Positions 1,875 through 41,352 of a stretch of 64,000 nt of DNA are shown here, one piece after another. The position numbers and the translations under genes were made by a program. This DNA comes from Alphaproteobacteria bacterium. GTDB lineage: Bacteria; Pseudomonadota; Alphaproteobacteria; Caulobacterales; Parvularculaceae. Under the pieces are notes generated by a model. The model made no database searches. It was not told the origin of the DNA and saw nothing but the letters and a program-made list of their open reading frames with translations. The stretch covers positions 1-64,000 of the forward strand of contig WGLS01000001.1 of NCBI GenBank assembly GCA_016125455.1. Reading direction: 5' to 3'. Numbering within the stretch: position 1 is the stretch's first letter; each line of letters starts with the position of its first letter.

Positions 1875-2918
1875 TCAGCGGTCAAAGAGGCCTTCATCGG
1901 CGCGCGCTGGCGGCGCGAGCCCGAGATGCCGCCATGCGGTTGCCGACAGGACGCGGCCGCGGGGCGTGCGCTGGATAAGTCCTTGCTGCAGCAGGAACGG
2001 CTCGATCACGTCCTCAACGGCGTCGCGCGCCTCAGCGAGGGCGGCTGCGAGCGTCTCGACGCCGACCGGACCGCCGCCAAAATGCTCCGCAATCAGGCCA
2101 AGATAGCGCCGGTCAAGGGGATCGAGCCCGAGCCGGTCGACGTCGAGCCGCGCAAGCGCCGCATCGGCGATCCGGCCGTCGACGGCGGCGTCCGGGCCGG
2201 CTTCCACGGTCGCGACGTCGCGCACCCGCCGCAACAGCCGTCCGGCGACGCGGGGCGTGCCGCGAGCGCGCCGGGCGATTTCATGGGCGCCGTCGCCGGT
2301 CATCGCGAGGCCGAGGAGCCGCGCGCCGCGGGCGACGATGAAGGCGAGATCGTCCTCCGCATAGAAATCAAGGCGGATCGGGATGCCGAACCGATCGAGC
2401 AGCGGCTTGGTCAGAAGGCCTGAGCGCGTCGTCGCGCCGATCAGGGTGAACCTCGGCAGGTCGATCTTCACCGAACGCGCAGCCGGCCCCTCGCCGATCA
2501 TCAGGTCGAGGGCGAAGTCCTCCATCGCCGGATAGAGCACTTCCTCAACGGCGGGGGTTAGGCGGTGGATTTCGTCAATGAACAGAACGTCGCCGGGCTC
2601 CAGGTTCGTCAAGAGCGCGGCAAGGTCTCCCGGCTTCGAGATGACCGGCCCGGACGTCGAGCGAAAACTTGCGCCGAGCTCGTTCGCGACGATCTGCGCC
2701 AGCGTTGTCTTGCCGAGGCCAGGCGGTCCGTGCAGGAGCACATGGTCAAGCGCGTCGCCGCGCGCCTTCGCCGCCTGGACGAAGACGGCAAGGTTGTCCT
2801 TGGCCTTGGCCTGTCCGACGAAATCCGACAGGCGCTTTGGCCGCAGGGCGACATCGGGGTCTTCCTCGCGCTGGAGCGCGTCGATGAGGCGGTCGTGGGG
2901 AATGGCGCGCTCGCCCAT
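1875..2918 (-). CDS. ruvB: Holliday junction DNA helicase RuvB
   Basis: AAA+ motor of the RuvABC branch-migration complex. Walker [10 protein letters not shown] is near residue 65, Walker B is LFIDEIHR, sensor 1 is GATTRSG, and a winged-helix C-terminal domain includes RTPRGR. At 347 residues it matches the family length. The ATG shares one base with the ruvA stop codon (TGATG); a GTG one codon upstream is an alternative start. It is the last gene of ruvC-ruvA-ruvB, in which consecutive genes overlap, implying translational coupling. Confidence 0.97.
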
Positions 2919-16477: not shown

Positions 16478-16562
16478 GTTGCGGCGCTCGCGCGCCGTGG
16501 CCCTTCTTGGGCGTTTCCTCCCTATGACTTCGCCGCGAGGTTCGCCTCGCGGCCTTTTTTTT
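16478..16562 (+). ncRNA. MmgR/alpha-r8-like small RNA with UUUCCUCCCU
   Basis: About 85 nt. The predicted structure is hairpin GGCGC-TCGC-GCGCC (16483-16496), hairpin GCCC-TTCTT-GGGC (16500-16512), a single-stranded TTTCCTCCCT (16514-16523), and an intrinsic terminator: stem CCGCGAGG / CCTCGCGG with a TTCG loop (16533-16552) and eight Ts to 16562. The conserved 10-mer UUUCCUCCCU between a stem and a rho-independent terminator is, from memory, the hallmark of the alpha-r8 family, whose Sinorhizobium member MmgR limits polyhydroxybutyrate accumulation. The 10-mer is anti-Shine-Dalgarno-like and could block translation starts. The 5' end is estimated. Confidence 0.72.
16533..16562 (+). terminator. 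Rho-independent terminator of the sRNA
   Basis: A perfect 8-bp GC stem, UUCG tetraloop, two C and then eight T residues. It ends 6 bp before the stop codon of the convergent N-formylglutamate amidohydrolase gene. Confidence 0.9.
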
Positions 16563-16568
16563 GCGCTT

Positions 16569-35601: not shown

Positions 35602-35769
35602 GTGCGTCTCTCCCCAGACGACGGGCGGTTGCTGCCGCCTCTTGTTGAGGATTTTACGCATCCGGGCCGCCGGCCACAAACGCCGATGGCAGCGGTAGCG
35701 TCGCGCATCGGCGCAGGCCGCAATACAGCCGCCGTCAACGGCATTCACCGGGCTATTGGGGATCGAAGT

Positions 35770-35860
35770 GGAAGGCTGAAACGACCCGAACCGAAACTCG
35801 TTACGGCTGCTTCCTTCCGGACCTGACCGGGTTGGCGAGAGATTCGTCCGCCAGCCTTCC
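35770..35860 (-). ncRNA. ffs: Signal recognition particle RNA (4.5S)
   Basis: The minus strand contains the universally conserved apical domain GGTCAGGTCCGGAAGGAAGC followed by AGCC, closed by an outer stem GGAAGGCT / AGCCTTCC (35853-35860 with 35770-35777). Length about 91 nt fits small bacterial SRP RNA. It guides Ffh-FtsY targeting of membrane proteins. Its position upstream of dnaX is common in alphaproteobacteria; here the two YbjN-like genes lie between them. Confidence 0.93.
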
Positions 35861-35934
35861 GCGGCCTATATCGATCGCGCGCGGCAGGAACGCAAGGGTT
35901 TGCCCCGTCGGGCGGCGCCGCCTAGAAGCGAACG

Positions 35935-36930: not shown

Positions 36931-39243
36931 CTAGGCGCACACGAATCCGACGCCAGCTTTTTCCTCGCATCCCGACGGCGCGCCATGCACGCGCCAGGCC
37001 GCCGCGAGCCCGACCCGCTCGGCGAAGGCCGGAAAGTCCGGATGCCGGCGCAGCCCCGCGGTGCGATCCCTGTCATCCCACAGGATATTGAGCACGAAGG
37101 TTGCGCCCCCGAATGCGCGCGACTGGAACGTCCGCATGAAGAGGTCGTACTGGCCCGACTGGAGCATCATGCCGAGGATCGCAGGATTGAGGGCGATGTC
37201 AGGGTTGGTCGCGACCCCTTCGAGGCCGGCGCGCACCATCCGGATCGCTTCGGCATCGTCGCCATAAAGCGCGTTCGCGACCACATCCGACGGCCGCGCG
37301 CGGTCCTCGGCGCCGCTTTCAGCGCCACCTCGTTCGCCATCTTGAGCGCTTGGCCCGAACAGCGACCGCAGCGCGGGGTTCGCCATGTCGAAGCCCGCCG
37401 CAAACCGCCTGACCGCCTCATCCTGTCGCCCTTGCAACGCGAATATCTGCGGCAGGATCAGGGCAGCCGGCGTATGGCCAAGCTCAATCGCCCGGCGCAT
37501 CAGCGCCTCCGCCTCGTCGAGCTGGCCAGCGTTCATCCTTGCGATGCCAAGGGTCATGAGGTTGGACACATTGATCGGATCGAGATCAGCCGCCTCCTCG
37601 AGAAGCGGCAATGCCCGCTCCGGATGGCCAAGGTATGACCAGTAATACCCGACCGCGCCGACGATGTCCGCGTCGCCGGGGTCAAGCTCCATCGCCTTCG
37701 ACAGCGCCTCATAGGTTTCGACGAACTCGCCGCGGTAACTGTGAGTGGCGGCGATGGCGAGATAGGCACGGGCGAGACTCGGATCGAGATCAAGGGCGCG
37801 TCTCGCCGCCGCGTTCGATTTGTCGAGATAGGCGTCCGCGTCCGTAACCGGGAGGTATTGCGGCAGGAAATACGTCGCTCGCGCGAGCTCGGCCCACGCC
37901 TCGGCGAAGTCGGGATCCAGATCGACGGCCGTGTCGAGAAGGGCGATCGCGTTTGACAGGGTCGCTTCGCTGAAGCGGTGAGCGACAAGCGATCGCGCCT
38001 TGAGGAACAGGTCGTACGCCTCCTTTGAGGAGGTCAGCCGTTTCGCCAGACGCTCGCCGCTCTCAACATCGAGCAGGACGGCCAGTTCGTCCGCGACATT
38101 GCGGGCAATCCGTTCCTGCAACTCGAAAATATCGGACAGCGAGCCGTCATAGGTGTCCGACCACAGGTGATATCCGTCCGACGCCTGAATGAGCTGGGCG
38201 GTGACGCGAACGCTGTCGCCCTGCTTGCGCACGGAGCCTTCGAGAATCGTCTCGACGTTCAGTTGCCGGGACACCTCGCGCAAGTCGAGATTGCGCCCGC
38301 GGAACGCGAATGAAGACGTCCGCGCCGCGACGTGAAGGGCGGGCGCGCGGACAAGCGCGTTCAAAATCTCCTCGGCGACGCCATCGGAGAAGTATTCCTG
38401 GTCGCCGTCGGGACTCATGTCGTCGAATGGAAGGACCGCAATCGACTTTGCCGGCGGTTTCGCCACAGGCGTCAGAGGCGGCGTTGCTGACGAGCGTGCC
38501 GGCGCAGCCGCCAGGCCGGTCAATCCGGCTGTCGGCGGATCGGCCCTGGCAACCTTGTCAGACGGCGGTCCGTCGCGCCCGAAGAGCATGAACCCGATTG
38601 CCGCGACAAGCGCTACGAAGAGTGCGCCCGCCAGAACTGACATGCGCGGCATGGCGGCGGGCGCCGGGCGAGCCGCCGCAATCGGCGCCGTTGACGCCAA
38701 CGCCAGCGGCCGGGAGGCGCGAACCCCCGTCTGATCAGACCCAGCCGGGTTCTCAAGCGTAGGGGCCGCCCCCATTGGCGGGGTCGGCGCGGCGATTGTG
38801 GGAGGGTCGACTGACGGCGCCCCTTCCCTCGACCCGGCAGCGGACCGGGCGTCTCCGACGGCCGCCGCGCGAGGCGCATCAAGGGCGTCGCACCTCTCCA
38901 CCGGCTTGAGAAACCGATAGCCGCGGCCGTGGACCGTTTCGATCCAGGTCGGCGTCCGGGCCGGGTCGCCGAGGGCGTGACGGGTTTCCTTGACCGCCGT
39001 CGTTAGGACTGCATCGCCAAACGCCAATCCGCCCCACACCTCTTCGATCAGCGCTTCCTTCGTGACCAGGACTTGCGGCTGCCCCATCAGGGCGCGCAGC
39101 AACGCGAAGGGCTTGGGCGACAGGCCAAGTGCCTCGCCATCGAGAAATGCCCGTTCATCCTTCAGGTCAACCGTGAGGTCGCCGGCGATAAGATACCGTC
39201 CGGCGCCGGTCATTGATCCATCGATCATTGCTTCGCCCGACAC
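36931..39243 (-). CDS. CadC-like regulator: winged helix, membrane helix, TolB/FlgO-like domain and TPRs
   Basis: 770 residues. OmpR/PhoB-type winged helix (about 15-115; LLRALMGQPQVLVTKEALIEEVWG, GRGYRFLKPV), a Pro/Ala linker, one transmembrane helix (about 202-221), a periplasmic domain starting KSIAVLPFDDMSPDGDQEYF (about 265-395), and Sel1/TPR-type helical repeats to the C-terminus. Such one-component regulators sense a periplasmic signal and act on DNA from the membrane. GTG 39243, ATG 39228 and ATG 39213 are all possible starts. A palindrome with a direct-repeat half-site lies just upstream at 39311-39347. Confidence 0.85.
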   Translation of the reverse strand: MSGEAMIDGSMTGAGRYLIAGDLTVDLKDERAFLDGEALGLSPKPFALLRALMGQPQVLVTKEALIEEVWGGLAFGDAVLTTAVKETRHALGDPARTPTWIETVHGRGYRFLKPVERCDALDAPRAAAVGDARSAAGSREGAPSVDPPTIAAPTPPMGAAPTLENPAGSDQTGVRASRPLALASTAPIAAARPAPAAMPRMSVLAGALFVALVAAIGFMLFGRDGPPSDKVARADPPTAGLTGLAAAPARSSATPPLTPVAKPPAKSIAVLPFDDMSPDGDQEYFSDGVAEEILNALVRAPALHVAARTSSFAFRGRNLDLREVSRQLNVETILEGSVRKQGDSVRVTAQLIQASDGYHLWSDTYDGSLSDIFELQERIARNVADELAVLLDVESGERLAKRLTSSKEAYDLFLKARSLVAHRFSEATLSNAIALLDTAVDLDPDFAEAWAELARATYFLPQYLPVTDADAYLDKSNAAARRALDLDPSLARAYLAIAATHSYRGEFVETYEALSKAMELDPGDADIVGAVGYYWSYLGHPERALPLLEEAADLDPINVSNLMTLGIARMNAGQLDEAEALMRRAIELGHTPAALILPQIFALQGRQDEAVRRFAAGFDMANPALRSLFGPSAQDGERGGAESGAEDRARPSDVVANALYGDDAEAIRMVRAGLEGVATNPDIALNPAILGMMLQSGQYDLFMRTFQSRAFGGATFVLNILWDDRDRTAGLRRHPDFPAFAERVGLAAAWRVHGAPSGCEEKAGVGFVCA

Positions 39244-39347: not shown

Positions 39348-39504
39348 GCCGCAGTGGCCACGTTTCCGATGCGGGGAGTCGTCCCTGAAACCCGCAGGAA
39401 TACTGCGCTGCAATCGGTGTCCTAGCATTCCTCAGATCATTTCACAAAAGCGCCATGCCCCGCTCAAGCACTCGGCCGCAGGCGCCCCAATATCGTGGAT
39501 GTCG

Positions 39505-40343
39505 ACGGCGCGAAGGAGAGAGCGCGACGCCGACCGGTTCGCCGCCGGGAGGATGGCGGGACCAGGCGGAAAGGCCAGGGGGAGAACCTGGCGGAGCGAT
39601 CGGCGGGCGACCGCCACGGGAGAAAGAGATGAACAAGACAGTCCTGTTCGCATCGATCATCGGCCTGGCGCTTATCGCCAATGCAGCGCTCGCGGACGAC
39701 GGCATGGCCGGCCCGCGGAACGGCGAGTCTCGTCGCCCGGCGACGGTCGCGATGATCGTCGCGCCGGCCGCCGAGCAAAGCGCGCCGACGCCGGCTGTCG
39801 CCCTCGCCCGGCAAGCCCGGATCGATCGCAACGTGTTTCGTCGTCTCGCCGGCCCCTCCGCAGGCGAAGGCGCGAATGAGCCTCTGACGTCGCCCTCCGA
39901 CGTCTGAGGCGATCCGGCGCCACTGCGCCCCCCGGCGCAGCGGTCTCGGGAACGAACCCCGAGGGGGAGACGGCGTCCAACGCCCTGACGGACGACGCCT
40001 TGGGTGTGGCTGGGGGAGAAACCGGGGGAGAAGCGCCTTGCGCAAGGCGGCAGGCCGACGGGGGAGAGCGGCTTGTCCCGCGAAGCGCCGCGGGGAAGGA
40101 CCGATGGCCCGAGGGGAGACCGGGCCGCGTACGGTCCGACCGCCGACTCGCCAGGATGCGACGCCAGTCGCCGCATCGGGCGATGACGCAGTCACGCCCT
40201 GCCTCGCGGCGGCGAACGGAACTACCGGGCGCCAGGCGTAGACGGACGGCGCGCTTCGATCAGGCCCTGACCCTGGGTCGCCCACACTGGATCGAAGCGC
40301 GTCGCTCCGCTCGCAAGGACCGACCGACGGAGAGAGCGGTCGG
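39505..40343 (+). other. Array of GGGAGA motifs in hairpin loops around a small ORF
   Basis: Exact GGGAGA occurs at 39580, 39618, 39965, 40014, 40026, 40062 and 40114; near-forms are at 39515 (GGAGAG), 39547 (GGGAGG) and 40329 (GGAGAG). Several sit in loops of GC stems: CCGCC/GGCGG (39542-39559), GCCAGG/CCTGGC (39574-39592), GGCCCG/CGGGCC (40106-40126) and CCGACCG/CGGTCGG (40320-40343). None falls inside the 92-codon ORF at 39629. Stem CTGCGCC/GGCGCAG (39923-39940) follows the ORF stop. Loop-displayed GGA resembles CsrA/RsmA target RNAs; this is inference. Confidence 0.5.
39629..39907 (+). CDS. Small secreted protein, function unknown
   Basis: 92 residues with a clear signal peptide (MNKTVLFASIIGLALIANAALA, cleavage before DDG when split as 1-22). 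The mature part of ~70 residues is Ala/Pro/Arg-rich with no recognised domain. ATG is preceded by GGGAGAAAGAG, one base different from the leader of the partial gene at 63989. It is divergent from the CadC-like regulator and embedded in the GGGAGA array. Confidence 0.65.
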   Translation: MNKTVLFASIIGLALIANAALADDGMAGPRNGESRRPATVAMIVAPAAEQSAPTPAVALARQARIDRNVFRRLAGPSAGEGANEPLTSPSDV

Positions 40344-40467
40344 GACGCCGGGGCGGCGATGGCGCGGCGCCATCGCAGCTCCGGCGTTTCCGCGCGACAA
40401 AAGACTGGACACAACAAGATGGCGAAGATGGGCTGGCGGGGATGGGCCGGAGATCCTGCCCCGGCTG
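39908..40467. other. 560-bp non-coding stretch, highly structured
   Basis: It contains the downstream half of the GGGAGA array, the hairpin at 39923-39940, the palindrome GCCTTGCGCAAGGC (40035-40048) and several further GC stems. A plus-strand reading frame runs through it but only as an antisense shadow of pheA with no codon or family support. Confidence 0.5.
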
Positions 40468-41352
40468 TCAGCCGCCGATTTCCAGTCGCCGGGCGTCCGC
40501 CCGATAAACCCCCAGCACCTTGAACGAGGACGAAAAGAACGACAGCTCTTCAAGGGCGCGGCGCAAGGGTGGGTCTTCTGGGTGACCCTCAACGTCAGCA
40601 TAGAACATCGTCGCCGTGAACGAACCCTCGCGCATGTAGCTTTCAAGTTTCGTCATGTTGACGCCATTGGTCGCGAAACCGCCAAGCGCCTTGTAGAGAG
40701 CGGCGGGAATGTTCCGGACCTGGAACACGAACGACGTAACTATCGGCCCCTCCCCCGGTTCGACGTCCGCCGGCTCTCGCGCCATCAGAAGGAAACGGGT
40801 CGTGTTGTGTCCCGCATCCTCGACATTGGCGCGCGCGACCTGGAGCCCGTACAATTCCGCCGCCCGCGCCGACGCAATCACCGCTTCGGTTCGTTCGCCA
40901 GTCTCGGCGAGCCGCTTGGCGGCGCCGGCCGTATCTCCAGCCGCTTCCGCCTCCATCCCGAGTTCGTTGATCACGCCAAGGCACTGGCCGAGCGCCATGG
41001 CATGGCTGCGCACGCGTCGGACGTCCTTGAGGTCGACGCCTGGCAGGGTCAGCAGCTGGTGGCGAATGGACAGGAAATGCTCGGCAATGATCTGTAGATC
41101 CGTTTCGGGCAATAACCGGTGAATGTCCGCAACGCGCCCGGCGAGCGAGTTTTCCACGGGCAGCATCGCCTGGATCGCGCGCCCTTCCGTGACGGCATCG
41201 AGCGCGGCATCGAACGACCCGCACGGCAAGGGATCAAGGTCCGGCGCAAACAGGCCGCAGGCGATTTCGGAGTACGCACCAAGGGACCCCTGAAACGCGA
41301 TTCGCCCACGCTCCTTTCCGTCGTGATCCTTCCCTCTGCTGCTTGCGGTCAT
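40468..41352 (-). CDS. pheA: Prephenate dehydratase
   Basis: 294 residues. Converts prephenate to phenylpyruvate. Catalytic domain: IAFQGSLGAYSE, MLPVENSLAGRV, SHAMALGQC and NTTRFLLMAR with the essential Thr-Arg; regulatory ACT domain with FVFQVRNIPAALYKALGGFA, NGVNMTKLESY. No chorismate mutase domain, as is usual in alphaproteobacteria. It is divergent from the cytochrome c gene, a common arrangement in this group. Confidence 0.96.
   Translation of the reverse strand: MTASSRGKDHDGKERGRIAFQGSLGAYSEIACGLFAPDLDPLPCGSFDAALDAVTEGRAIQAMLPVENSLAGRVADIHRLLPETDLQIIAEHFLSIRHQLLTLPGVDLKDVRRVRSHAMALGQCLGVINELGMEAEAAGDTAGAAKRLAETGERTEAVIASARAAELYGLQVARANVEDAGHNTTRFLLMAREPADVEPGEGPIVTSFVFQVRNIPAALYKALGGFATNGVNMTKLESYMREGSFTATMFYADVEGHPEDPPLRRALEELSFFSSSFKVLGVYRADARRLEIGG

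Follow-up and report, generated by a model that had tools for sequence, protein, structure and literature searches.

Introduction

In decoy RNAs of the CsrB/C and RsmX/Y/Z type, GGA is repeated many times in the loops of a single molecule. The targets of CsrA likewise hold several GGA sites in single-stranded loops, one of them on the Shine-Dalgarno (SD) site. Titration by base pairing is known from SroC, an mRNA-derived sponge of the small RNA (sRNA) GcvB. 6C RNAs, an actinobacterial family, possess two C-rich loops.

The cuckoo RNAs of the alpha-r14 (NfeR1) type are described as having hypervariable stems and an anti-SD sequence left unpaired in all loops (PMC7143759). CcsR1-4 are processed from the ccaF1 3' UTR (PMC8625941), and their transcription depends on RpoE/RpoHI/RpoHII (PMC8307010). 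AbcR1 and AbcR2 (alpha-r15) are anti-SD sRNAs encoded beside the LysR gene lsrB, AbcR2 being driven by RpoH1 (PMC8844928), and the CCCC loop of CcnA from Caulobacter pairs with GGGG in mRNA leaders (PMC8959179). The literature considered also covers RusT (PMC11005374) and PmaR (PMC6234868).

The locus analysed here differs from SroC in that a site is repeated about nine times, to either side of an ORF. It also differs from CsrB/C and RsmX/Y/Z, since no CsrA is found here, the proposed binder is an RNA and the decoy would reside on an mRNA. With about nine sites round one ORF, the candidate transcript would be, to our knowledge, the largest known mRNA-borne sRNA decoy array in bacteria. A narrow literature search, from which absence is not implied, returned no paper tying GGGAGA, GGGGA or GGGGAGA to small RNAs, or describing alphaproteobacterial anti-SD sponges.

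A cluster of GGGAGA motifs around a 92-codon ORF

The window, that is the whole 64-kb stretch of DNA that was analysed, comes from contig C20 of a 3.6-Mb genome (G000). The relatives used for comparison are Parvularculaceae, whose order in GTDB we take to be Caulobacterales. The features considered are the following, where "sRNA" denotes the gcvA-linked sRNA presented below.

16493..16568, + strand: mmgR/suhB sRNA (RF00519; Rfam, 64.1 bits, gathering score 41)
36931..39243, - strand: winged-helix (Trans_reg_C) regulator with TPR repeats, from a domain search
39441..39470, no strand assigned: block conserved with G002, TCACAAAAGC-CCA-GCC-CGCTCAAGC, from a pairwise alignment; about 45 nt upstream of the first motif
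39501..39534, + strand: hairpin with the variant GGAGAGAG at 39515; 8-nt complement of the sRNA loop CUCUCUCC
39547..39553, + strand: variant GGGAGGA; 7-nt complement of mmgR UCCUCCC, not of the sRNA
39574..39592, + strand: hairpin GCCAGG-GGGAGAA-CCTGGC, GGGAGA at 39580; 10-nt complement of the sRNA
39618..39623, + strand: GGGAGA forming the SD site of the ORF, without a hairpin; 7-nt complement of the sRNA
39629..39907, + strand: ORF of 92 codons whose start resembles a signal peptide (by eye)
39965..39970, + strand: GGGAGA site; 9-nt complement of the sRNA
40014..40019, + strand: GGGAGA site; 9-nt complement of the sRNA
40026..40031, + strand: GGGAGA site; 9-nt complement of the sRNA
40054..40072, + strand: hairpin GCCG-ACGGGGGAGAG-CGGC, GGGAGA at 40062; 9-nt complement of the sRNA
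40106..40126, + strand: hairpin GGCCCG-AGGGGAGAC-CGGGCC, GGGAGA at 40114; 7-nt complement of the sRNA
40320..40343, + strand: hairpin CCGACCG-ACGGAGAGAG-CGGTCGG, GGAGAGAG at 40329; 8-nt complement of the sRNA
40344..40391, + strand: long terminal hairpin ACGCCGG...CCGGCGTTTCC, from sequence and alignment; CGGCG-TTCCGCGCG is kept in G002
40468..41352, - strand: prephenate dehydratase gene pheA, convergent with the ORF

A motif count verified the seven exact GGGAGA copies that a preliminary description of this DNA had placed on the + strand (39580, 39618, 39965, 40014, 40026, 40062 and 40114). None of them falls within the ORF and, as had also been claimed, the copy at 39618 constitutes its SD site. 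Across both strands the window contains 25 GGGAGA, compared with a shuffled mean of 31, and these are split into 18 on the + strand and 7 on the - strand. Seven copies within 911 nt of one strand correspond to a Poisson P of 4e-10 at the rate given by the other 11 + strand copies, a value obtained after the fact for a cluster that was chosen for being a cluster. The clustering of the motif is solid, and the claim that it is displayed in hairpins is good for a few sites only. Three stems named in the preliminary description do exist, and about five hairpins of the array present GGA in their loop, but the hairpins of the exact copies in G000 do not surpass those at positions drawn at random from this region (p = 0.13). 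For the counterpart locus of G002 they do (p = 0.006).

Folding of the window locus provides no consistent strand signal. The segment 39908-40140 folds no better than its dinucleotide shuffles (z = -0.2) with no strand preference, the 5' segment favours the - strand by 1 sd, with the 39501..39534 hairpin pairing better on that strand, and 40141-40400 favours the + strand by 2 sd. A scan of the window transcript recognised no promoter or terminator; its sole terminator-like match lies within the start of the ORF on the - strand, at a frequency equal to the shuffled rate. No CRP box and no RpoH-like promoter were found at the locus, and on the - strand an RpoH-like promoter was found neither in G000 nor, apart from one loose match, in G002. 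The conserved block at 39441..39470 is a possible promoter or operator and has no sigma-70, CRP or RpoH-like match in G000. The hairpin at 40344..40391, which was not scored as a terminator, is possibly the 3' end of the transcript. Runs of at least four A on the + strand, equivalent to U-runs on the - strand, occur at 39446 and 40399 only, neither of them just after a - strand motif hairpin. Rfam gave no match in the array at its gathering score.

Conservation of the locus

The ORF probably encodes a small secreted protein, as suggested by its predicted N-terminus, and matched no Pfam or NCBIfam family. A diverged homologue with 35-37% identity occupies the same place in G002, a member of the same genus, and the differences between the two ORFs by codon position (41/40/51 of 92) represent a weak coding signal. 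The comparison with relatives that had been proposed as a check showed that the layout is kept in G002, where the flanking genes are retained and six GGGAGA lie on the same strand within different stem sequences, for instance a stem of 12 bp enclosing AGGGAGAG. G001, whose genome is 66% complete, lacks the locus beside pheA. Orthologs of the winged-helix regulator were found in 2 of the 62 family genomes (its own and G002), together with a partial paralogue in its own genome. The locus is thus known from two species. The paralogue, on contig C22 (L276), is not accompanied by a cluster, GGGAGA and TCTCCC being found once each in 4.7 kb, and weak matches of the ORF elsewhere (L003-L008) have 0-2 GGGAGA each. 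Positions 35765-35862 of the window (- strand) hold an SRP RNA by Rfam.

CsrA and mmgR as candidate partners

The preliminary description compared the array with target and sponge RNAs of CsrA/RsmA and proposed a genome search for csrA. This search found the Pfam family CsrA (PF02599) in 0 of 41 related genomes, the window's own included, and its control was positive in 3 of 14 named genomes. CsrA/RsmA was therefore rejected as the binder. The other suggestion, that the motif is bait for an anti-SD sRNA such as the one at 16.5 kb, is supported as to the kind of partner, but the 16.5-kb sRNA is not the best candidate. The 16.5-kb RNA is mmgR, which is present in 35 of the 41 genomes with CCUCCC in every copy listed. 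The GGGAGGA of 39547 is the only place in the array that its CCUCCC stretch matches over 7 nt, and the array contains GGAGA nine times and GGAGG once. With this single well-fitting site, mmgR was rejected as the main partner, whereas the gcvA-linked sRNA fits nine sites.

A structured RNA family linked to gcvA

The 62 family genomes were searched on both strands for pairs of GGGGAGA, and 16 of the 30 loci returned were read. The search gave 65 pairs against 29 for a reversed control pattern, so that most single GGGGAGA pairs mean little. Palindromic repeats in G022, G046 and G056 were left out of the array counts; in G046 and G056 (g3 genomes) the repeated palindromes read GGGGAGAGGTCCAAATC...GATTTGGGGAGA. 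Several genomes share, among the loci read, a two-hairpin element after a LysR gene, which is of the GcvA type by NCBIfam in the one member scanned. A gcvA match at E <= 1e-60 occurs in 58 of the 62 genomes, a few of these perhaps being paralogues, and the region downstream of it was examined in 51 of the 58. A covariance model built from 11 training regions matches 29 of the 51 at E <= 0.1, 23 of them at E <= 0.01, and the training set itself accounts for 11 of the 29. Two hairpins covary in these 29 copies, and 20 of 21 pairs show changes on both sides. The proportion of cells paired is 90.8%, compared to 74.8% after shuffling and 37-50% after sliding, in an alignment that is fitted to the model. 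Rfam has no match for the element at gathering score in the loci scanned, and within that scope the element would add a conserved sRNA that no Rfam family matches at this score. Outside the family, model R2 detected it in 3 of 200 genomes sampled from the order, where the loops match, and in 1 more of 385 genomes of the class. These counts are lower bounds because the model describes the other strand and the filters were strict.

Several tests identify the C-rich strand, with loops UCUCCCCC, as the functional one. Read on the G strand, the stems contain 29 A.C mismatches and 10 G.U pairs, in 16 sequences versus 2; this asymmetry stems from hairpin 1 (23 to 5), hairpin 2 being neutral (6 to 5). 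On the C strand 94.1% of cells are paired. Raw folding energies favour the G strand in 9 of the 29 copies, and once composition is corrected for, all 29 are more stable on the C strand (mean z -5.3 versus -2.4). In the flank that follows the final hairpin of the C strand, U is enriched on average (0.49 versus 0.26), with runs of up to seven. Finally, CTTGA-N17-CCAYNT, which we take to be an RpoH-type promoter, is located 11-14 nt upstream of the first hairpin in 12 copies out of 29, several of them from close relatives (mean in base shuffles, 0.03). Taken together, the G.U asymmetry, folding, U-runs and promoter make the family look like an sRNA of about 80-90 nt with UCUCCCCC loops, and the first three of these overturned our initial candidate, an RNA with G-rich loops. 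Models R1 and R2 represent the non-functional strand, and genome searches with R2 were therefore less sensitive than possible. A recurring TRAC-N6-GTMA-like box was noticed by eye before the sRNA promoter in g2 genomes, for example at L137 and L131. Hfq is present in both G000 and G002.

The gcvA-linked sRNA is reminiscent of the cuckoo and CcsR RNAs in that its stems vary and an anti-SD sequence is predicted to be unpaired in every loop across the 29 aligned copies, and of CcsR also by the RpoH-like promoter of 12 of the 29. It differs from alpha-r14 in having two hairpins instead of three, and from both groups in its loop, UCUCCCCC rather than CCUCCUCCC, and in a promoter of its own beside gcvA. 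Rfam ar14 and CcsR1 were not reached at gathering score: the best values in five loci were 30.6 of 58.8 bits and 25.5 of 65.3 bits, respectively, and L155, L120 and L134 have no match to either at E up to 1. The best Rfam resemblance is to 6C RNA (RF01066), for which L102 scores 44.5 bits and the gathering score is 47; sub-threshold 6C matches were obtained for 3 of 5 loci in one C-strand scan and for none of the 9 sources of another scan. The sRNA thus stays below the 6C threshold, and its host group differs from the actinobacteria. Compared by description, it resembles AbcR as an anti-SD type sRNA beside a LysR gene and CcnA as a C-rich loop that would face G-rich mRNA leaders. Unlike AbcR, the LysR gene is here of the GcvA type (one member scanned), the sRNA converges on it, and the loops differ.

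The copy in the window's own genome is a weaker case, which rests on position, structure and loops. It lies at C20:549001-549074, its C strand being the + strand of the contig, with predicted loops UUCUCCCCCUU and CUCUCUCCCCCUUU. It matches the first model weakly (E = 0.042) and the second model, which includes it, at E = 0.002. It shows neither a U-run nor an RpoH-like promoter, and Rfam gave no match to it at E up to 1.

Complementarity between the array and the sRNA

The array holds nine sites with perfect complements of at least 7 nt to this sRNA, compared to a mean of 1.25 and a maximum of 5 in 200 shuffled sequences. Over both strands of the 64 kb, 7 of the 14 sites at 8 nt and 9 of the 49 at 7 nt fall in the 0.9 kb of the array. 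The complement extends over a mean of 8.6 nt at GGGAGA copies of the array versus 7.2 nt at 18 other copies of the window (p = 0.006), and the second loop of the sRNA is matched by both GGAGAGAG variants (39515 and 40329). In G002, the array has 6 sites for that genome's own sRNA (shuffled mean 1.28, maximum 5). As the search that led to the sRNA started from this very motif, complementarity of the core is not independent evidence. Independent evidence comes from the strand result, the two variants and the longer extension. Repeated complementarity to the exposed seed of a resident sRNA, as looked for in a sponge, is present, the core match being partly by construction.

Proposed mechanism and alternative explanations

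We tentatively propose, with a probability of roughly 0.45, that the + strand transcript serves the gcvA-linked sRNA as a multi-site target and decoy. The + strand would be transcribed into an mRNA for the small secreted protein, whose 5' leader, including its own ribosome site, and 3' UTR would together carry about nine copies of GGGAGA or GGAGAGAG. Provided that the copy in this genome is active, these sites may pair with the loops of the trans-encoded, cuckoo-like sRNA. Pairing at the ribosome site would repress the ORF, and the extra sites would capture the sRNA and titrate it, so that production of the mRNA relieves its other GGGGAGA-type targets. Such a transcript would be a base-pairing counterpart of CsrB, with many-site decoy logic placed on an mRNA in a group without CsrA.

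The failure to recognise a promoter or terminator at the locus counts against transcription of either strand. In favour of the + strand are the SD copy, the retention of the ORF in G002 and the fact that no U-runs follow hairpins on the - strand. The odds of the + strand are lowered, and those of the - strand raised, by the own sRNA copy without U-run, promoter or Rfam resemblance and by the asymmetry confined to one hairpin. On the - strand, the functional RNA would be a pheA 3' UTR whose hairpins carry UCUCCC loops, a large cuckoo-like anti-SD array similar to CcsR1-4. The gcvA-linked element, which shares the motif, does work on its C strand; the hypervariable stems of alpha-r14, with an anti-SD in all loops, would also fit the window hairpins read backwards, and both the 39515 hairpin and the 5' segment lean to that strand, the latter by 1 sd. 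This reading nevertheless leaves aside that one copy is the SD site of the ORF and that four other genomes have the motif in sense orientation downstream of an ORF. The position of the two U-runs, the dearth of - strand RpoH-like promoters and the 2-sd preference of 40141-40400 for the + strand also count against it, and we regard it as rather unlikely.

An RNA-binding protein could recognise GGGGAGA instead. The layout, with several GGA in loops and one on the SD site, is that of CsrA targets, and the transcript would then be a CsrB/RsmZ-like decoy combined with a repressed leader. The protein would have to be CsrA-like in genomes of which 41 of 41 miss CsrA, while a base-pairing partner with matching loops exists and two variants follow its sequence, which makes this explanation improbable. 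More improbable still is that mmgR and/or other anti-SD sRNAs act on the ORF mRNA as on any ordinary target, with no titration involved, its 3' copies being stability or termination hairpins: mmgR is conserved (35 of 41 genomes), and every copy listed has CCUCCC, but the sequence that it fits, GGGAGGA, occurs once in the array, and GGAGA outnumbers GGAGG nine to one. Chance clustering of purine-rich sequence in GC-rich intergenic DNA would agree with a main array that folds no better than shuffles and with a G001 that lacks the array. Set against the cluster P of about 4e-10, although calculated after the fact, and the diverged copy in G002, we consider it very improbable.

Candidate sponge transcripts in other genomes

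Further candidate transcripts compatible with the decoy mechanism were seen within the family. G064, G055, G052 and G045 have small ORFs behind a TGTGAN6TCACA box, followed by 4, 2, 2 and 1 GGGGAG sites, respectively, and the predicted products are probably secreted. One of these genomes, Marinicaulis flavus SY-3-19 (G052), has both the sRNA and the CRP-box ORF with GGGGAG sites. In G051, G043 and G007 (L091, L092 and L093), a CRP-like box precedes two GGGGGAGA sites by about 110 nt; a terminator-like hairpin was scored in G043 and not in G007. G007 has the candidate sponge transcript, yet no sRNA was found beside its gcvA. A CRP-like box was present at 5 of the 16 loci read. In the six of these candidate sponge genomes tested, matches to the resident sRNA amount to 2-4 sites, numbers that at least 1 of 200 shuffles reached in five of them.

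The idea that the window ORF is homologous to the CRP-box ORFs was considered and dropped: it ranks 14th among 5539 sequences, with E = 7.5, against a profile from which it was left out, and a hint of homology in alignment A7 was set aside because A7 contained both ORF sets.

It may be, which we hold doubtful though somewhat plausible, that in Parvularculaceae an RpoH-type anti-SD sRNA is wired to multi-site GGGGAGA sponges on small-protein mRNAs, some of them behind CRP-like boxes. If so, a metabolic signal would release the targets of a stress sRNA.

Minor observations concern individual loci. The CRP-box small proteins of L279, L280, L281 and L101 form a family of 96-138 aa, of which the one member scanned has no NCBIfam match. 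The next gene at L092 encodes a Crp-type HTH with a TPR-S domain. In L110 (G068), positions 1300-1860 contain two tandem units, each made of a CRP-like box, a 28-codon ORF and a hairpin with a GGGGGAGA loop, and the 28-codon ORF of the first unit is MGIVEIILIGFIGINATLGLSSLVTVGR. Lastly, in L057 (G009:C204), from a lower-GC relative, GGGAGA is found at about 2140-2250 (- strand) in the linkers of a structured intergenic region upstream of recG.
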